Source: Diphasiastrum complanatum (lineage: Eukaryota > Streptophyta > Lycopodiopsida > Lycopodiales > Lycopodiaceae). Taken from it: a stretch of DNA of 64,000 nucleotides. A model generated the notes under the pieces. The model ran no database searches. It was not told the origin of the DNA and saw nothing but the letters and a program-made list of their open reading frames with translations. Position numbers and translations under genes: made by a program. Positions 1-13,625 of the stretch are shown here, one piece after another. Each line of letters opens with the position of its first letter. Within the stretch, counting starts at the first letter, position 1. The DNA is taken from the NCBI GenBank assembly GCA_029204225.1, contig CM055097.1, positions 63,795,662 to 63,859,661 on the forward strand, written 5' to 3'.

Positions 1-3000
1 ATCGAAATCATCTTCTTTCAAATCTAGAGCCCTGATGTATTCTTTGACTTCGGTAGGACAATATGCCAGTCTTTCCCCGAGATCAGGTTCGTGTTCCATG
101 AATATCATGTGCTCTTCTTTTGATTCCTCTGATTTCAATGTGAAGTTGTTTTCTGTTAGTTCTTCTGCTTTTAAATCGTCAGCGTCCTCGTCAGTGGCAG
201 GGAAGTCAGGGTTAGACTTTGAATCAGGATGTGCTACTGGGCTGGACCGATGTAATTTCTTGTCTTCCTGTACATCAGAATTTCTCTGCAGGGTACATTC
301 AAGTGGTGCAAGCCCTTCTACTGGCCCCTCTTCATTATGTGCTAGTGAGATTTGTGCCTCTTCATCAATTGGAACTTGAGGAAGTTTCTCTCTCTTTTCT
401 TCCACATCAATTGTAGCATCTGCACGTTTGTCTTCAAAAAGCTCTTCCACAAAGGATGCTCCTGTGTGTTGTTCCAGCATTCGAATAGGTTGAACAGTTT
501 CAGAAGTGTAATCAAAATCATCTTCCTTCAATTTGAAAAGCTTGATGTATTCTTTAACTTCCTCTGTAGGACGATATTCCAGACTTTCCTTGAGCTCAGG
601 TTCTTCTTCCACCATGTGCTCTTCTGTTATTGCCTGTGATTCCTCTGTGAAGATGTTTTCTGTGAGTTTTCTTGCTGTTAAAGTGTCAGCTTCCGTAATG
701 GTTGTAGAGAACTCAGGCTGAGACTTTGAATCAGCATGTGCTACTGGGCTGGACTGCAGTAGTTCCTCGGCGTCCTCTACATCATAATTTTTCTGCACAT
801 CTTCCTCCTTATTGGTCTCTTCAAATGAAGATTCAACTGATTGAAGCCCTTCTATTAGCCACTCTTCATTATGTGCCAGTGAGATTGGTGCATCTTCATC
901 AATTGGAACTTGAGGAAGTTTCTCTCTCTTTTCATCCACATCAATTGCAGCATCTGCACCTTTCTCTTCAAAAAGCTCTTCCACAAAGGATGCTCCTGTG
1001 TGTTGTTCCTGCATTACAGTAGGTTGAACAGTTTCAGTAGTGTAATCAAAATCATCTTCCTTCAAGGGCTTGATGTATTCTTCTTCTTCTTCTGTAGGAC
1101 GATATGCTGGTGTTTCCTTGAGCTCAGGTTCGTATTCCATCAATATCGTCTGCTCTTCTGTTGATTCCTTTGATTCCACTGTGATGATGCTTTCTTCAAG
1201 TTCCTTTGCTGTTAATGTGTTATCAGCTGTAGAGATCTCAGGCTCAGATTTTTTATCAGCATGTGCTACTGGGCTGGACTGAGGTTGTTCCTCAGCTTTC
1301 GGTACATCATAATTTCTATGCCCATCTTCCTTTTTATTTTCTCCAGAGGAAGATTCAACTGATTCAAGCCGTTCTACCGGCGCTTGTTCATTATGTTCTG
1401 GTGAGATTTGTGCATCTTCATCAGTTGGAATGTGAGGAAGTTTCTCTGTCTTGTCATCGACATCTATTGTAGCATCTGCACCTTTCTCTTCTGCACCTTT
1501 CTCTTCAAAATGCTCTGCCGTAAAGGATGCTCCAGTTTCTTGTTCTGGTATTCCAATGTGTTGAACTGCCCCAGTGGTGTAATAAGAATCATCTTCCTTC
1601 AACTTCAAAGGCTTGTTGTATTCGTCAACATCTTCTGTAGGACGATATGCCAGTCTTTCTTTGAGCTCAGGTTCGTCGTCCATCAATATCATGTGCTCTT
1701 CTGTTGATTCCTGTGATTCCACTTTGAAGTTGTTTTCTGTAAGTTCTTTTGGAATCAAAGTGTCAGCTTCCTTATCAGCTGCAGAGAAATCAGACTCAGA
1801 CTTTGAATCTGCGTGTGCTACTGGGCTGGACCAAGGTAGTTCCTCGGCTTCCTGTACATCATATCTTCTTTGTACATCTTCCTCTGTATTGGTCTGTTCA
1901 AAAGAGGATTCAACTGATTGATGCTCTTCTACCGGCCGTTCTTCATTATGTGCCGTTGAGATTGGTGCATCTTCATCAATTGGAACATGAGGAAGTCCTT
2001 CTCCCTTTTCATCCACATCAATTGTCGCATATGCACGTTTCTCTTCAAAAAGCTCTGTCACAAAGGATGCTCCTGTGTCTTGTTGCGGCATTTCAATAGG
2101 TTGAGCAGTCTTAGTAGTGTAATCAAAATGATCTTCCTTCAAGGACTTGATGTATTCTTCAACTTCTTGTGTAGGATGACATGCCAGTCTTTCGTTAAGC
2201 TCAGTTTTGTCTTCCATCAATATCATGTTCTCTTGTGTTGATTCCTTTGATTTTACTGTGAAGTTGTTTTCTGTAAGTTCTTTTGCTGTAAAAGTTTCAG
2301 CTTCCTTATCAGCTATTGACAAATCAGGCTCAGACTTTGAATCAGCACGTGCTACTGGGCTGGATGCAGGTAGTTCCTCGGCTTCCTGTACATTATAATT
2401 TGTCTGCACATAATTTTCCCCTTTATTGGTCTCTTCACAAGAAGATTCAACTGATTCAAGCCCGTCTACCGGCCCCTCTTCATTATATGCCTGTGACTTT
2501 GGTGCATCTTGATCGATTGGAACATGTGGCAGTGCTTCTCTCTTTTCATGCATATGAATTGTAGCAAATGCACCTTTCTCTTCAAAAAGCTCTTCCACAA
2601 AGGATGGTCCTTTGTCTTGTTCCAGTATTCCAATAGCTTGAACAGTCTCAGTAGTGTGATCAGAGCCGTCTTCCTTCAAGGGCTTGATGTATTCTTGAAG
2701 TTCTTCTGTAGGACGATATGCCGGTTTTTCCTTGAGCTGGTAATCGTCTTCCATCAATATCATGTGCGCTTCTGTTGATTCTCGCGATTCCGCTGTTAAG
2801 ATGTTTTCTGTAACTTCTTTTGCTGTTAAAGTTTCAGCTTTCTTATCAGCTGTAGTGAAATCAGGCTCAGACTTTGAATCATCATGTGCTCCTGGGCTGG
2901 ACTGAGGTAGGTCCTCGGCTTCCTGTAGATTATAATTTGTCTGGACATCATCTTCCTCTTTATTGGTCTCTTTAGAAGTAGATTGAACTGATTGAAGCCC

Positions 3001-3961
3001 TTCTACTGGCCACTCTTCATTTTGTGCCGGTGGGATTGGTGCATCTTTATCAATTGGAACATGAGGAAGTGCTTCTCTCTTTTCATCCACATGAATTGTT
3101 GCATATGTACCTTCCTTTTCAGAAAGCTCTGTCTCGAAGGATGCTCCTGTGTCTTGTTCCAGTGTTCCAATAGGCTGAACAGTCTCAGTAGTGTAATCAG
3201 AATTATCTTTCTTCAAGGGCTTCTTGTATTCTTCAACTTCTTCTGTAGGAGGATATGCCGTTCTGTCCTTGAGCTGATGTTCATCTTCCATCAATATCAT
3301 ATGCCCTTCTGTTGATTCCTGTGATTCAACTGTGAAGATCTTTTCTGTAAGTTCTTTTGCTGCTGAATTTTCAGATTTCCTATGAGCTGTAGAGTAATGA
3401 GGCTCAGACGTTGAATGAGCATGTGCCACTGGGCTGGACTGAGGGAATTCCTCGGGTTCCTGTACATTATAATTTCTCTGGACATCTTCCACTTTATTGG
3501 TCTCTTTAGAAGAAGATTGATCAGATTGAAGCCCTTCTACCGGCCCCTCTTCATTAGGTGCCGGTGAGATTGGTGCATGTTCATCAATTGGAAGCACTTC
3601 TCTTTTGTCATCTACATCAATTTTATCATCTGGACTTTTCTCTTGAAAAAGCTCTTCCACAAAGGATGCTCCTGTGTCTTGTTCCGGTATTCCAATAAGT
3701 TGAACAGTCTGAGTATTGTATTCAAAATCATCTTTATTCAAGGGATTGATGTATTCTTCAACTTTTTTTGTAGGATGATATGCCAATCTTTCCTTGAGCT
3801 CAGGTTCGTCTTCCATGACTATCATCTGCTCTTCTGTTGATTCCTGTGATTCCAGTGTGAAGATGTTTTCTTCAAGTTCCTTTGCTGTTAAAGTGTTATC
3901 GGCTTCCTTATCAGCTGTAGAAATCTCAGGCTCAGATTTTGTATCAGCATGTGCTAGTGGG
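1..3961 (-). repeat. In-frame tandem array of ~177-residue units (7 full, 1 partial)
   Basis: A marker motif, QSSPVAHADSKSEP and variants (plus strand gggctggac), recurs with its ggg at 3959, 3431, 2894, 2357, 1823, 1271, 746 and 239. The spacings are 528, 537, 537, 534, 552, 525 and 507 bp, all multiples of three, so length changes have kept the frame. Each unit has the same order of short motifs: SSPVAHADSKSE, LTENIFTVESQESTEEHM, ELKERLAYRPTEEVEEYI, a hydrophobic-acidic motif TGASFVEELFEEKGAD, then VPIDEDAPIS and EETNKEEDVQ. The array continues past position 1. The units are similar but clearly diverged, so this is not a recent duplication or an assembly artefact. Confidence 0.9.
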
Positions 3962-6900
3962 CTGGACCGAGGTAGTTCCTCGGCTTCCTGTACATCGTAA
4001 TTTCTCTCCAAATCTTCCTCTGTATTGGTCTCTTCAGAGGAAGCTTGAACTTCTTGTGATCGGGCCTTATATTTGTCACCAGGAAGCTCTTGCAGAGACT
4101 CCTCTGTACCTAAACTCACAGATCTTGTGTCATTAAATATATCTTCCGCTGCTATGTGGCTTTCTGTTTCCTTTTTTGGGGAAGATTGGCTGTCCGCTTC
4201 TTGTACCAGTTTCGTGTCACTATTGGTCTCAGTAGTATTGTTTGTTTGCTCAGTAATATCAAGTTTTTGCAAATCTTTGAGCTCGGGGAGCTCTTCATCG
4301 ACAATGGAAGGCACATTTTGTACGCCAGTTGATGGCGAACGTGCAGCTACTTTTACCTGGTTTCTTTCATCCAAATATATAAGCTTTTGATCCTCCTTAT
4401 CTTTGTCTTCAAGTGGCTGTACGTCTATCTCCTTGAGAAGGATGTTTGTCTCTGATGTTTTCATAGTTGTTCCTTCCTGTAATCGTAATAGAGACTGAAG
4501 CACTTCCATTGACCCTTCTTCAATATTGTCTGTTGAGGTTAGTGCTTCTTCAGCAATACAAATTTGAGGCATTGTTTCTCTTTGTTCGTTAGAATCAGCT
4601 GCTGCATTGCTTTCTCTGAATGCCTCTGTAAGCAATTCTCCTGTTTCTTGATCTGTTATTCTCATGCGTAAAACATCCTCGTTACTGTGATCAGAATCAA
4701 CATCCCCCAAGGGCCTGAAATATACTTCAACTGTAGGATGATATTGCAATCCTTGCTTGAGCTGAGGTTCGTTGTCCATAAGTATCGCATGTGCTGCTGT
4801 GGATTCTGACGATTCTACTATAGAGGTGTTTCCTTCAGGCTCCTTGGCTGTTGAAGTTTCTGTTTGCTTATCAATTTTAGATGTCTGAGGTTCATCAAAC
4901 CTTTCGACGACATCCTCTAGTTTTTGCTCTTTTGTTGTTTCAGGTGATAAGTTTGGAACTCCAGATACTTCTATTTGTCCATCTTCCTCCCTAGAAATTG
5001 ACTGTGCATTTTGGATGTGTTCGTTTATAACTAGTGTCTCATTAACAGTTGAGACAGGAGGTACATCTCGAGTGACCTCTGCATCAGCAATAACTAGTAA
5101 AGTTTCTGTTTGTGTATTGTCATCAACTGGAAACAGTTCATGTGGGCCATCTGTATCTGAAGTTGGCCTCTGTTCAGGACCTGTAGTATCAATGTACTCC
5201 TGTTTTTTGATTTTCTCTTCTTTTTGTTGCAGTTGGACATCTTCAATAGTGGATTCTATATCAACAGCACTTGTGGAAGTCATCAGCATACGATCATCGG
5301 CATTGGTTTCTTCTTTTGCCTCAGTTGTGTCCTGCATCAACGGCTGGTGCTCAGGTGCTTGAGCCATTTCCTTTTCTATGAAATCTCCCAAAGCTGATTT
5401 TGAATCAGTAGCCAAACCAGAACATTTTGCTGGTATAGTTTCAACTGGTATGGAGTCAACTATTCCATGCTCTTCATTGTCGAGTTCTTGCAAATCTTTT
5501 GGCTTGGATCCCTTGTCGGACAGAATCTCAATTTCTTCTTTCTCTTGAGATGATTGGTTTTCATACATCTCTTCCTGAGCCGCTGCCGCTATCTCTGTAT
5601 GTGTTACTGGGCTGGAGGGAGGTAGTTCTGCTTTTAGTGCGTCATAAAGTTTGTGCACATCTTCCCCTTTGTTGGTTTCTTCGGCAGGAGATTGATCTTC
5701 CTGTGGTTGGATGTTCAATTTTTCCTGTTCTTCATTGACAACAGAAGGTGCGTTTTGTACTTCACTTGATGGCAAACTTGAAGCTGCATCTGATTGCATA
5801 AGCATCAACTCTTCGTTACTTTTGTGTTTGCAAAGTTTTACCTCTATTTCATCAACAAGAGGAATGTTTGCCTCTCGAGTTTGTATAGTTGTTCCTTCCT
5901 GGAATTGGGAATGGGATTGAAGCTCCCTCACCAGCTTCTTAACATTATGTGTCGGTTCTTCTTCATCAATTTGAATATGAGGAATTACATCTCTCTGTTC
6001 ATCAAGTTTAACTGAAGCGTCTGCATCTGTGCCAAATAGAATTAGTTCATTTGTGTCATGCGCATCTGAAGTTGGAACTTGCTCAACAATTTTACCATCA
6101 ATGCACTCTTGTGTTTCAGCTGCCACTTCTTGATCTTGTTTTTCAAGACTTGCAGATGTTGTTTCAATATCAGCTGCGTTGGTGGACATTTCATTTATTA
6201 TTTCATCTGATGAAGTCGATTTGGATTCAGGAACTGAACTAAAATCTTTCACTGGGATGTAGTCAACTTGTTCATATCCTTGCTCTTTATTGGGAAGTGT
6301 CTCCAAATCCTTGAATTTGAAATCCTCCTCCAAAGCAATCTTATGTGTTTTTCTCTCTTCAGATGATTGGAATTCAGACCCATCTTCGTGAAGGTCCTTA
6401 GCAGTTGAAGCTATTATGTCTGTATCCCGTGTAGTTTGGTCTACTGCTGCTGTGACAGGTACCTCAATCCATTTAAAAAGATGGGCATCTTCTTGCATCT
6501 CATTGAGCTTTTCACTCTGTGATGCAGTTAACTCTTTAGGCTCTTTCTTTGAAGACGAGGGTATCTGGAACTCTTTTGCATCCGTCAACTCTGAATCAGA
6601 GATATCTAGTAGCAGTGTTTCTCTTTGTGTTTTTTCATCACATGGAAATATTTCATGTCTCTCATTTGTATCTGAAGTTGTTTCCTGCTTGACAGTAATA
6701 TCATCAGTGCACTCGTGTGTCTCCGTTGTCTCTTGTTGATGTTGTAGTTGGAAATCTTCATTTTTGGATCCAGTATCAGCAACCTCTTCGTGAGAGAATG
6801 CCAGTGTCTCTATATCTGTTTCCAGCTGTCTCTGAAGTGATAGTACGTCTGGCTGTGTTGCAGTTTCAATGTCAGCATCAACTAAGATGTTGTTCTCCTG

Positions 6901-9900
6901 TGGTAGTAGCTGGATTTTGGTAAACATTGCGTCTTGTGCAGCTACTTCTGCTACATATGGAGGTTCTTGAGCCATTTCATTTTCTATTTCGTCTCTTAAA
7001 GGTGATATTGAATCAGTAGGCAAACCAGAACATTCTGCTGGTACAGAGTCACTGTATCCTTGCTCTTCATTGTGAGGTGGCTGCAAATATTTTGTTTTGG
7101 ATCCCTTGTCAGAAGGAATCTCAATGTCTGTTTTCTCTTGAGATGATTGGATTTTGGACCTCTTTTCACTAAGGTTCTTAACATTTGATTCCGTTATATC
7201 TGACGTCATGTCTGCTAGTACAGGTATGTCAATCTCTTTGAGAGCATGTGCATGTTCTTGCAACACATAGAGCTTTTCACTCTGCCATGCAGTTATTTCT
7301 TTGGATGACTCTATCCAAGCAGAGTCTATCTCTAACTCTTTTGTGTCCATAGTTCTGTGTGTGACAGTATCTTTGATCATGCTGCTAGTGTCTGCTACCA
7401 GAGGTATTTCTACTTCTGTGCTCTGAGCTTGTACTTGCAATTTGTGGTCAGTCTCTGAATTGACATCTGCTACTGGGCTGGACTGAGGTAGTAGTTCCTC
7501 AACTTTCTGTCCATCACGATTTCTCTGCACATCTTCCTGTTCTAGGGCATTCGATTTGTCACCAGAAATCTCTTCCAGAAGCTCCTTTCCACCTGTACTC
7601 ACAGATCTTGTCTCGTCAGAACTATCTTGCCCTGTGATGTAGTTTTCTGCCTCATTCTGTTTGATGGATTGGCTGTCCTGTTCTTTTACCACTTTCGTGT
7701 CACCATTGGTCTCTGATTTATCACTTGTTTCCTCAGCAGTATGAAGTTTCTGCAAATCGTTTAGCTCAGCGAGTTGTTGATTGACAATGGAAGGTACATT
7801 TTGTACTTCAGTTGATGGTAAATGTAAAGCTGCTTCTGTCAGGTTGTTTGCATCCAAATAAGTATGTTTTAGCTCGTACTCGTCTTTATATTCAGCTGTT
7901 TGTACCTGTATCTCCTCACTGATAAGGATGTTTGTCTCAGGTGTTTGCGAAGTTGTTCCTTCCTGTGATGGAAATGGAGACTGAATTTCTTCTACAGGCC
8001 CTTTTTCATACTGTGCTGATAAGATGAGTGTTTCTTCATCAGTTGTAATGTGAGGCATTACTCTTTGTTTAATTAAATGAACTGCACCATCTGCATTTTT
8101 TTCTTCAAATAAGGATTTGCTAGTTTCTTGTTCTGTTATTCTCATCGGTAGAATGTTTGTGATATTCTGGTCAAAATCAACCTCCCCCAAAGTCTTGAAG
8201 TTTCCTTCAACTTGTTCCGTTGAATGATATGCCAGGCTTTCCTTGAGCTGATCATCCACAAGTATCACATGTTCTTCTGTTGATTTTGATGATTCCACTA
8301 TGGAGACATTTCCTCCAAGCTCCTGTGCTGTTAAAATGCTTGCTTCCTTTTGAATTGCGGATGTCTCAGGTTCATCAATCGTTTTGACATCCTCTACGTT
8401 TTGTTCCTCTGTTGGTTCAGGTAATAAGTTTATTCCATCAGATGCTTCTATTTGTCCATCTTCCTCAGTGGAAATTGGCAGTGTATTTTGGTTGTTCTCC
8501 TGTACTAATGATGTTTCATTAGAAGTTGAGATCTGAGGTACGTGTAATGGGATCTCTGCTTCAGCTGTAGCTATTAACGTTTCTCCTTCTGCATTGTCAA
8601 CAAAGGGAAATTCTTCATGTGGGGCATCTGTATCTGAAGTTGACATCTGTGCACCTGTAATATTGATGCACTCATGTGTATCAGTTTCCTGTTCTTGGTC
8701 TTGCAGTTGGACATTTTCAATAGTTGATCCTATATCAGCAGCATTGGTGGAAGTCGATAGCTGCCCCACTTGAGAAGTACCAGCATCAGTTTCTTTTATC
8801 ACCTCAATTATGTCATAGAATGGTTGCAGCTCTTTTATCGGTTGCTGCTCTACTTCGCTGAGAGGAGCACCTTCTGCAATCTCTTTCTGAGATGCCGCCT
8901 CTGTCTCTATGTGTTTTACTGGGCTGGACTGACTTGGTTCTTCAGCTTCTTCCTGTAATGGCAATCGAGATTGAAGCTCTTCTACCATCCCCTCTTCATT
9001 ATGCGCTGGTGAGTTGAGTGTTTTTTCATCAATCTGAATATGAGGAATTACGTCTCTCTGTTCATCCATATTAACTACATCTTCCCCATCCGTGTCAAAT
9101 AGTACTAGTTCATTTGTGTCATCTGTATCTGAAGTTGGCACCTGCGTAGCACCTTTGCCATCAATGCACTCTTGTGTCTCAGCTGTCTCTGTTTGATATT
9201 TTCTCTGGAGATCTTCATCTGTTGTTTCAATATCAGCAGCACTGGTTGACGTTTCATTTTTTATTTCATCTGATGGGGTTGATTTGGAATTGGTAGAAAA
9301 ACCCAAATCTTTTGCTGGTATACAGTCAACTAGTTCATATCCTTGCTCGTTATAGTGAATTGTCCGCAAATCATCTGGTTTGAAACCCTCCTCCAATGGA
9401 ATCTCAAGTTGTTCACTCTCTTCAGATGATCGGATTTTCATGTAGTTTTCTGCTTCCTTCTGTGGGGTGCATTGGCTTTTCTGTTCCTGTACCACTTCGG
9501 TGTCACCATCGGTCTCAGGTTTATCACTTGTTTGCTCAGCAGTATCAAGTTTATGGAGTTCTTTCAGCTCGGGGAGCTCTTTATCGAAAATAGAGGGTAC
9601 ATTTCGTACTTCAGTTGATGGCAAACTTATAGCTGCCGCTATCAGGTTCTTTGCATCCAAATTTAGCTCCTCTTTATCTTTGTCTTCAGATGATTGTACC
9701 TCTATTTTCTTTAAGAGAAGGATGTTTGTCTCTGGTGTTTGTGTGGTTATTCCTTCCTGTAATGTCAATGGAAACTGAAGATCTTCTACCAGCCCTTCAT
9801 TCTTAAAGTACTCTTCAACTTGTTCTGTAGGATGATATGCCAATTTTCCCTTGAGCTGAGGTTCGTCGTCCGCATTGATCCCACATTCTTTTGTTGATTC

Positions 9901-12900
9901 TGACGATTCCACTACGGTGATGTTTTCTCCAAGCTCGATCGCCGTTGAAGTGTCTACTTCCTTATGAATTGTAGACGTCTCAGGTTCTTCAAACCTTTGG
10001 ACATCAGATGCTTCTGTTTGTCTATCTTCCTCAGCAGAAGTTGGCAGTTGGATATTTTCCTGCACTATTAGGGATTCAAAGGTTGAGATGTGAGGTACAT
10101 CCAATGTGGCCTCTGCATCAGAAATGGCTATTAACGTTTGTCCTTGTTTATGATCATCAACTGGAAGTAGTTCATGCAGGGCATCTGCTTCTGATGTTGT
10201 CATCTGCTCAGTACCTGTACTATTGTTGCACTCTTGTGTATCAGTTTTCTCTTCTTGGTCTTGGATTTGGGCATCTTCAATAGTTGATCCTATATCAGCA
10301 GCACTGATGACACTCAATAGCTGGAACACTTGAGAAGTACTGGCACCGGTTTCTTTTATCGCCTGAGTCTTGTCGTGTATTAATGATTTCAGCTCGGGTA
10401 CCTGTTGCTCTTCTACTTCACTAAGAGGAGCTTCTTCTGCAACATCTTCCTGAGATGCCTCCTCTTGCTCTGGATGTTCTACTGGGCTAGACTGTAGTAC
10501 TTCAATTTTTTGTGCATCATAATCTCTGTGCAAATTTTTGGCTTTGTTGGCATCTTCAGCAGGAAATTTAACTTCCCATGACAGGATATTGAATTTGTCA
10601 TCAGGAAGGTTATCTGGAAGCTGCTCAGCTCCCGAACTTGTGTCATCATTGATATCAACCTCTGCTATGTAGTTTGCTTCTTCCTTCTGTGGAACAAATT
10701 CATTGTCCTGTTCTTGTACCACTTTTGCACCACCATTGGTCTCAGCTCTATCATTTCGTAGCTCAGTAGTGTGAGGTTTATGCAAATACTCAGTTTTATG
10801 CAAATAATTAGGGATCCCTATAGCCATTTCATTTCCTATTTCATCTGCTAAAGATGATTTTGAATGAAATGCCAAACCAAAATCTTTCAATGGTATAGTG
10901 CCAACTAGTTCATATTCTTGCTCTTTATCCTCAGGCATCTGCAAATCTTTTAGTTTGAGACCCTCCTGCACAGGAATCTTAATTTCTTTTCTTTCTTCAG
11001 ATGATTGGATCTCAGACCCATCTTTGGGAAGGTCCTCATTATTTGAAGCCATTATATCTGTAACTTTGGTAGTCGTGTGTACTGCTACAGGTACCTTAAT
11101 CTCTTTGAGAATAGTATAATCCTCTTGCATTTCATTGAGCTTTTTGCTCTGTGATGTGAGTAGCTCTGCAGGCTCTTTCTTCCAGGCAGAGGGTATCTCT
11201 ACGTCTTTTGCATCCATTATTGCATGTCTAGTATCTTTGATTATTTCTGTAGTACCCGCTAGTTGAGCTATTGGTACTTCTCCCCTCTGAGCTTCAACTT
11301 GCAGTTCTGGCTCACCCTTAAGATCAACGTGTGTTGCTGGGCTGGATAGAGGTAATTTCTCAGCTTTCAATTCATCAGTATTTCTGTGCACATTTTCCTC
11401 TTTGTCAATATCTTTAGCATGAGATTCAACTTCATGTGGCAGGGCATTGAATTCGTCACGAGGGAGCACTTCCAGCAGCTCCTTTGCTCCTGAACTCTCA
11501 GATCTTTTCTCTTCAGTTGTATCTTCATCTGGTTTGTAGTTTTCTGTTTCATTCTGTGGGAAGGATTCAATATCTTGTTCTTCCACCACTTCTGCGTCAC
11601 CATTGGTCTCATCTGCATCATGTGCCTGTTCAGCAGTATCAAGCTTCTGCAAATCTTTTAGCTCTGCGTTTTTTTCATCAAGGACGGAAACAACATGTTG
11701 TACTTCAGTCAGTGGCAGAGTTAAAGCTTCTTCCACCAAGCTCTTTGCATCTGAATGTATAATCATGAGCTCCTCATCTTTGTCTTCAGGTAGTCGTACC
11801 TCTGTTTCCTCAATGAGAAGGATGTTTTCCTGTGTTGATTGCATAGGTGTCCATTTCTGTAATGAAATTGGAGATTGAAGCTCTTCTTCATTATGCACTT
11901 GTGAGATCGGTGCTTCTTCATCAATTGAAATGTCAGGTATCACTTCTCTCTGTTCATTCATATTAAGTGCAACATCTGCATCTTTTTTTCTGAAAAACTC
12001 TTTGACAAAGGGCTCTCCTGTTTCTTGTTCTGGTATTCTCATAAGCTGAACAACCTCAGTAGCTTTATTATAATCAAGTTCTCCCAAAGGCTTTGTCTCC
12101 TGTATGTGCTCTGTTGTTCCGTCCTCCGGTGATTTCTGGGCTTCTTGTTTTTCTGGAAGCCTTAAATAGCTGGTACTGTTGAACGAGGCATGCTTGAAAA
12201 CCTCTGCTGCAGAGGTTTCTGGCAGAACTGTTTGACTTCCTGGAACCTCAGTTTCCTTTTGTAATTTCTGATCATCCACTTTGTCAACTTGCTTCATCCT
12301 GTGAGAAGATCCCTCGTTTTTTGGCCTAGTTACTGTCTCAACCGTTAGTGTATTTGCTGAAAGAGTTGCTGGCTGGGCCATTGGTAGAAAAATATAGCCT
12401 GCTTCTGACTTTCCAGATTGATCATCATCCTCAGAATAATAGAAATCTGGCCCTTCAACATGCACTAGGCTGTCACTTGACGTTTCAGAGGATTTACCTT
12501 CAGGCAACGACTTATCACTTGAGTAATCACCCTCCGTTATTTTATCTGTACTGGCCATGTCTATTTTTGCATCATGCAAAATATAAACATGCTCCGATGG
12601 GTCTTTTTCTTTTGGAAAGGTCTCATCAACCTGAGTATCAATTTCTTTCCTTGGAGTTTCTAATTCTGCCTTCTTTGCTAATAGAAGTTGCTCTGCTGAA
12701 GTAGAGTCGTTTTCTCTTTGAAGGTTTTCAGTAGTTAACCCACTCTCTCTGGTATTTGACTTAGGCCCCATTGAGATGAACTCCCAATTTTCTGCTTCTA
12801 ACTTCAACTTTATTGGCTGATACTCCTGACTTATGTCTGCAACACCCTTAGAAACCTTATCTATCGTCACTGGAAGAGCGCCTTCTGATGCAGATGGCAT

Positions 12901-13455
12901 ATCTTTTGAAAAGGGTGTTTTTCTTCTTTCCAGTGGCTCTGTAGACAACTTCTGTTGCTCTTTCTCCCTCGCAATTTGAGTCTCAGTGTATCTATCAAGT
13001 TCTCTCTGTTTTTCAGTTTTTATGCGAGGGCGTGGTGAAGATTGCAGAACACTTTCAGAAGTGCTACTCGCATTTTGTAATTTTGTTGAGCGATTTGACC
13101 CAGAATTCATGTGATCTTCCTTGCTGGGAGAAGCAGAAATTGGGTTCAACTCTTTCTTTGAATCATATGTGGACTGTCTGACACTTGCACTTCTGGATAC
13201 GGTTTCATCCTGAGATTCTTCAGCAATATTGCCTTGTGCATCTAGTGGTGCAAAATCTGGAAAACTCTCATGGAGCTCCTCCTGTGCATCATGGTATCTG
13301 TCTGAACTCTCATCCGCAAGTAATGTTCCAAATTGTTTTCTTCTTGCGAGTTCTGATATTTTTGTTTCATCTCTGTTTCCTGCCTCTGGTGATTCAATGA
13401 CCTCTATTTTCTCGCTTTGTTTGATATCTCTTGAACCTTTTGATGTTTCTTGCTC
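1..13455 (-). CDS. Giant acidic repetitive protein, main exon (partial, runs off the left edge)
   Basis: The minus-strand frame whose codons fall on plus positions 3k+1 to 3k+3 is open from 13,455 to 1: 4,485 codons without a stop. The upstream edge is a good 3' splice site (TCTTTCTATTACAG, then GAG). Spot translations at 13.4, 12.9, 8.9, 2.9 and 0.06 kb all give the same style of protein: rich in Glu, Asp, Ser, Thr and Lys, with almost no Cys or Trp. I see no catalytic motif, signal peptide or membrane helix. The first ~400 residues are non-repetitive and include a charged stretch (RELDRYTETQIAREKEQQK, near 13,000). Then come long-period degenerate repeats, then a tandem array of ~177-residue units. 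No stop codon lies in the window, so the true C-terminus is unknown. I do not recognise the family. A large disordered scaffold or membrane-linked acidic protein is an inference from composition and the likely first exon. Confidence 0.9.
3962..12100 (-). repeat. Older long-period internal repeats of the giant exon
   Basis: The SSP marker recurs with its ggg at 5609, 7475, 8921, 10484 and 11339, that is 1650, 1866, 1446, 1563 and 855 bp apart, all multiples of three. A second motif, close to STEVQNVPSIVDEELPELKD followed by LDTAEQ, recurs near 4300, 5740, 7785, 9590 and 11,690. A third (TSDTD plus a HELFPVDD-like stretch) recurs near 5150, 6660, 8630 and 10,180. So the middle of the exon is an older, more diverged repeat of roughly 480-620 residues. 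The short units at the C-terminal side look like a later amplification of one part of it. Confidence 0.75.
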
Positions 13456-13475
13456 CTGTAATAGAAAGAGACAGG
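13456..13475 (-). other. 3' splice acceptor of the giant exon
   Basis: On the minus strand the sequence reads CCTGTCTCTTTCTATTACAG immediately before the GAG that opens the giant reading frame. This is a pyrimidine tract plus CAG, a canonical U2 acceptor. The same frame gains no clear protein-like sequence upstream of it. Confidence 0.8.
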
Positions 13476-13484
13476 CACAGGGGA

Positions 13485-13625
13485 GGTCATATATTGTGGC
13501 AAATCTCAAGTTGTCAATGAACACATCTCATAATCAACACAGTAGAACAAAAAGTTCAATTGTGGCAAATCTCAAGTTGTCAATGAACACATCTCATAAT
13601 CAACACAGTAGATCAAAAAGTTCAA
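13485..13625. repeat. Tandem duplication of ~70 bp beside the giant exon
   Basis: A block starting attgtggcaaatctcaagtt and ending in aaaaagttcaa occurs twice back to back, differing at about one base (agaacaa versus agatcaa). It lies just upstream of the acceptor, inside the inferred intron. Confidence 0.85.

Follow-up and report, generated by a model that had tools for sequence, protein, structure and literature searches.

How long can a single plant coding exon be, and does selection hold the reading frame of an exon of such length? The question is raised by a stretch of 64,000 nucleotides from the lycopod Diphasiastrum complanatum (the window; positions 63795662-63859661 of contig CM055097.1, here C6, in the 1.74-Gb genome assembly GCA_029204225.1). 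In its first 13,455 positions an earlier note had described a minus-strand exon of 4,485 codons that leaves the window and encodes a giant acidic repetitive protein. From the sequence evidence set out below, we consider it likely that this is the beginning of a frame-selected exon of ~53 kb coding for a giant acidic repeat protein.

The minus-strand frame is free of stops over window positions 1-13455 (4,485 codons) and is also open upstream of the predicted splice acceptor, as far as window position 13527. With 70 kb of assembly DNA joined to the left of the window, the stop-to-stop open frame comprises 17,768 codons (C6:63755882-63809188), and a separate whole-genome search likewise reported this frame, at 17,768 residues. 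Extension to the left, as the earlier note had proposed, leads to a TAG beyond the window at C6:63755884-63755882, placed 53,235 nt from the acceptor (17,744 codons plus the stop); the predicted full exon is about four times its window-visible length, 13.4 kb being the part cut at the window edge. The acceptor, identified by consensus match, reads TTTCTATTACAG/GAG in phase 0 (the slash marks the junction; tract at window 13456..13467, minus strand, directly upstream of the exon), as had been claimed, and the first in-frame ATG within the exon lies at window 13110. The remaining five frames of the exon stretch carry 562-1,977 stops each, and their longest open run is 162 codons. A second long locus was found neither with a 2-kb DNA query nor with a 984-residue query (match counts being lower bounds), and the longest off-locus span homologous to the exon measures 922 bp, so that what exists elsewhere consists of dispersed fragments rather than whole paralogues. 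The locus appears to hold one coding exon of ~53 kb, belonging to a nuclear gene that seems to be present once in the genome of a non-flowering land plant. Plant origin is supported by seven above-cut-off matches to the LEAFY SAM domain, a plant-specific family, with none in 14 control genomes. Three partial matches to a DNA-PKcs domain, one free of stops and two with an internal stop, also pass the cut-off, again with none in 14 controls; DNA-PKcs is reported to have been lost in angiosperms, while bryophytes, lycophytes, ferns and gymnosperms have it (PMC10419180). Immediately upstream of the acceptor, a 66-bp tandem duplication occupies window 13493-13625 (minus strand, 2.0 copies, 98%).

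The product predicted from the full frame has an isoelectric point (pI) of 4.2, a mass of ~2.0 MDa, 18.4% Glu, 35% charged residues and a net charge of -3,072, and contains 149 Ser/Thr-Pro sites, 20 Trp and 91 Cys; fully stretched, its contour would reach ~6.4 micrometres. Both the acidity and the repetitiveness that had been claimed are borne out, at four times the stated length. Its layout is tripartite. An N-part of 3,134 residues precedes 81 tandem units of ~178 residues each, an array that takes up 14,336 residues (81% of the frame), and a C-part of 274 residues closes the chain. The first 373 exon residues (window 12337..13455, minus strand) had no match elsewhere in the frame in the searches made. 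The rest of the N-part (4054..12336, minus strand) is a diverged repeat region in which unit-like segments, aligning with the array unit at 22-54% identity, intermingle with a second module seen again in the C-part, which itself aligns with stretches of the N-part at 20-47% identity. Given these matches between array unit and N-part segments, the array probably derives from an older composite module. The first seven whole array units and part of the eighth occupy window 1..4053 (minus strand); its far end lies beyond the window, near C6:63756.7k.

Unit pairs are on average 67% identical, and their relationships are strongly patterned. Among units 7-39 the closest partner lies 16 or 17 units away in 31 of 33 cases, and among units 42-53 it lies five units away in 10 of 12, a spacing from which the array is read as having expanded through successive unit and block duplications. 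Two block pairs were compared directly: block A (8,685 nt) and block B (8,469 nt) are 95.6% identical, and the members of a younger pair, of 2,874 and 2,877 nt, share 98.2% identity. Mean charge per residue stays between -0.12 and -0.24 across the units.

Selection on the frame was assessed over a minimum spanning tree joining the 81 units, on which 3,181 nucleotide changes were counted, a minimum, as such a tree undercounts changes. When the same base changes were placed randomly in 100 simulations, neutrality predicted 119 ± 11 stop codons (minimum 88), likely a lower bound; the unit codons contain none. Thirteen of the 3,181 changes would give a stop if applied singly to the source codon, and all of them fall in multiply changed codons. 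Blocks A and B differ by 366 changes with no stop against 15.9 expected (minimum 6 in 1,000 simulations), and each of their nine gaps has a length divisible by three. In the younger pair there are 51 changes and no stop against 2.1 expected (probability of none ~0.1, not significant alone), with a single gap of 3 nt, so that 10 of 10 gaps over the two block pairs preserve the frame, in keeping with the multiple-of-three spacing reported by the earlier note. The distribution of non-synonymous changes over the 178 unit positions, a test independent of the frame having been selected as open, gave a dispersion of 793 against a neutral mean of 174 and a maximum of 222 in 200 simulations. At a threshold of 1/200, 29 of the 178 positions were classed as constrained, where about one would be expected by chance, and 16 as fast. 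Constraint is most concentrated over unit positions 165-171, S.AHNEE, and carries on past the unit junction at E3, S6, E8, T9 and N10.

Several observations weigh against this interpretation. The tests on stops and gaps depend in part on the frame having been picked because it is open, and all sequence comparisons were made within one genome. Amino-acid change is close to neutral: the omega-like ratio of non-synonymous to synonymous change is 0.88 on the spanning tree, and single-change codons of blocks A and B are synonymous in a fraction of 0.257, with 0.219 expected. A replacement alters charge slightly less than under neutrality (0.446 against 0.483) and hydropathy to nearly the neutral extent (2.24 against 2.28), so that selection on composition per replacement is weak. 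Pooled pairwise unit values range from 0.59 to 1.64 by distance band; banding by the proportion of synonymous differences is itself a source of bias, so that where the closest bands exceed 1 this should not be read as positive selection. Homology to the repeat module continues past the TAG, across stops and in shifted frames. Flanking 5' or 3' exons were not found by Pfam among 20 hand-picked open reading frames (ORFs; one of them partial) out of 88 of at least 100 residues, and what function we propose is drawn from composition and analogy. Finally, the fragment control is weak. Twelve of at least 13 off-locus places carrying exon pieces were compared; ten have a protein-level match to the exon and two (L024 and L026) have none, and in eight of the ten a match is interrupted by a stop or the matches spread over more than one frame, the other two, both clean, spanning 183 and 207 bp. 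Two pairs among the ten (L017/L018 and L025/L027) are 99% duplicates, which makes the independent fragment count smaller, and a genome search that points the other way returned at least eight off-locus matches of 132-246 nt, seven of the eight without an internal stop, four of which (two on C14, one on C16, one on C7) lie outside the 12-place comparison.

The near-equality of the two substitution rates bears on the earlier note, which, in arguing for selection on the frame, had named equal rates between units as evidence against it. The value of 0.88 comes close to that; nevertheless, we do not take it as a refutation, because stops are absent where ~119 were expected and sites differ in rate far more than neutrality would produce. 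As far as the units reveal, the frame and a short motif seem to be under stronger selective protection than the individual residues.

Among the alternatives, the one that survives best is that of a real gene now decaying, whose frame was selected until recently and whose locus is silent or truncated today. The module homology that persists beyond the TAG and the ratio of 0.88 would both fit such a history, whereas there is no stop in 53 kb and the youngest block pair is likewise stop-free, albeit with so few stops expected that little hangs on it; we regard decay as unlikely. The tail, which has a decayed look, also bears on where the exon ends. It escaped one tblastn setting, which gave no rows on either flank, and was revealed by others. 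As the repeat homology beyond the TAG lies in shifted frames, that stop probably arose after the module it cuts, or else the exon ends earlier, at AAA/GTGAGT (C6:63756454), the one donor-like site within the final 3 kb that agrees at 8 of 9 positions, which would leave 17,554 codons. Under either 3' end, the predicted exon would encode at least 17.5 thousand residues.

A real exon that assembly of near-identical blocks has made several units too long or too short, or from which parts are removed as in-frame introns, is a similarly improbable alternative and perhaps marginally the weaker of the two. Its appeal lies in the high identity of the ~8.5-kb and 2.9-kb blocks; against it, the joined 134 kb contains no N and unit pairs average only 67% identity. 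That the stretch is a non-coding tandem satellite, with a unit length that is a multiple of three and a frame open by chance, would suit 81 tandem units with near-neutral amino-acid change, yet it was rejected as extremely improbable on the stop deficit, the non-neutral site rates, the openness of the 3,134-codon N-part outside the array and the other five frames, which hold 460-1,602 unit stops and 31-52 columns each with a stop as the minority state.

A ~53-kb frame-selected exon thus remains the favoured reading, and its surroundings can be described briefly. Copies of exon pieces, 183-922 bp long, were located (within L017-L028) at C3:50083.6k, C6:33846.5k, C22:6353k, C6:6252k, C1:64763.7k, C1:64886.8k, C8:20539k, C4:54194.9k and C13:14678k. 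Several sit in repetitive DNA that is ~95% alike among L020, L021, L022 and L023, and the dispersed pieces are perhaps captures by a mobile element. L017 and L018, 123 kb apart on C1, share 10-kb stretches of ~99% identity, as do L025 (unplaced C1710) and L027 (C4); each pair represents either recent duplications or uncollapsed haplotypes. In the flanks, three further ORFs from a second listing, scanned against Pfam, yielded none assignable to the giant gene, and among the hand-picked ORFs the ten downstream ones had no Pfam match above cut-off; matches to SfLAP, L38e, CFAP97 and DUF7527 in flank ORFs fell below the cut-offs and were treated as noise. Two ORFs at L055:1868-2728 (C6:63891.5-63892.4k, minus strand) match PF07992, pyridine nucleotide-disulphide oxidoreductase, above cut-off, and we take them to be perhaps an NDC1-like NAD(P)H dehydrogenase. 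A 530-residue ORF at L052:5209-6798 (minus strand), ~55 kb upstream of the giant exon and with no Pfam match at E≤0.1, is probably a separate gene. Long GA/CT runs and many broken pieces surround the gene (window ~28814-58460, C6:63738-63744k and C6:63859.8-63861.3k); by motif recognition, the broken pieces look like Copia-type retrotransposon polyproteins. Scans of the window with Rfam (at the gathering cut-off) and for transfer RNA genes were both empty.

Within the 4,500 residues encoded in the window, to which the scan was confined and whose repeat makes up most of the remaining frame, no Pfam family and no PDB sequence was matched at E up to 1. AlphaFold2 modelling of one unit, with an alignment of the seven window units, gave a mean predicted local distance difference test score of 53 and a predicted template modelling score of 0.10, with neither a strand nor any helix as long as four residues; such low confidence fits disorder without proving it. 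The protein is probably intrinsically disordered. The exon product may be pictured as a very long, soft, negatively charged polymer that would serve as scaffold, tether or spacer, displaying ~81 copies of a short linear motif about every 178 residues (S.AHNEE, then across the unit junction E..S.ETN); the exact identity of other residues would matter little.

Titin is built of folded Ig and FN3 domains. The present product resembles it in being giant and long, and differs in that the window part has no Pfam or PDB match and the unit no confident fold, leaving nothing that points to Ig or FN3 domains. Its exon is about three times longer than titin's largest, of 17,106 bp (PMC12198301). A closer parallel is offered by a survey covering over 5.86 million plant proteins, which lists giants near pI 4: a Selaginella 'unknown/titin-like' protein (XP_002985373.1; 8,462 residues, pI 4.02), a Sphagnum 'unknown' (Sphfalx0133s0012.1; 9,126 residues, pI 4.05), a Punica 'unknown' (PKI66547.1; 11,234 residues, pI 3.87) and a Gossypium arboreum 'titin-like' protein (XP_017639830.1; 7,209 residues, pI 4.21) (PMC6681478). 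Compared by listed size and pI only, these share with the present product a length above 7,000 residues and a pI of ~4, and one likewise comes from a lycophyte, although they reach 7,209-11,234 residues against at least 17.5 thousand here. The earlier note's statement that no family could be recognised may be too strong in view of these entries. In the relevant part of the survey's section, the largest land-plant entries are from sunflower (12,581 residues, pI 11.75) and pear (11,880 residues, pI 5.37), and the overall largest listed is a Volvox polyketide synthase (22,244 residues, 2,236.8 kDa, pI 5.94) (PMC6681478), which is comparable in mass and differs in its attribution to polyketide synthase domains and in its pI, not being an acidic repeat protein.

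RBB1 (At5g40450, REGULATOR OF BULB BIOGENESIS1) is described as a plant-specific giant without a conserved domain, cytosolic and partly membrane-associated, whose mutants have more numerous vacuolar bulbs and fewer trans-vacuolar strands (PMC4411111). It resembles the present protein in great size and lack of recognised domains, the latter observed here over the window's 4,500 residues. RBB1 itself has 2,890 residues and its putative orthologues up to 3,715; its relatives share a 75-residue C-terminal region, and the word 'repeat' does not occur in the main text of that paper (PMC4411111). The nearest known kind is that of the 'titin-like' or unknown pI-4 land-plant giants, and possibly that of RBB1; by this analogy, the protein might belong in the same group. 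Solely because of the loose resemblance to RBB1, one may speculate that it is cytosolic and could help to shape vacuole membranes or trans-vacuolar strands. No open-licence paper recognised as treating this locus was found in the literature on plant giants and longest exons.

Beside the yardsticks of those two sources (PMC6681478 and PMC12198301), the exon is exceptional, 'largest' going beyond what their listings establish, and the predicted product is a new and extreme case within a class of plant proteins that has received little study. More tentatively, as a serious possibility that we stop short of favouring, it may exceed every coding exon so far recorded in any organism and encode the largest land-plant protein, a disordered acidic polymer of ~2 MDa whose frame, length and motif are protected while its residues drift almost freely. 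If translated, it would be a plant protein of titin-like scale arising from a single exon, and would test the limits of exon definition, messenger RNA export and translation. Its 81 copies in one chain offer a measure of which features of a disordered protein selection keeps, and this lineage, with its extreme array, would give access to the acidic giants of land plants, about which little is known.
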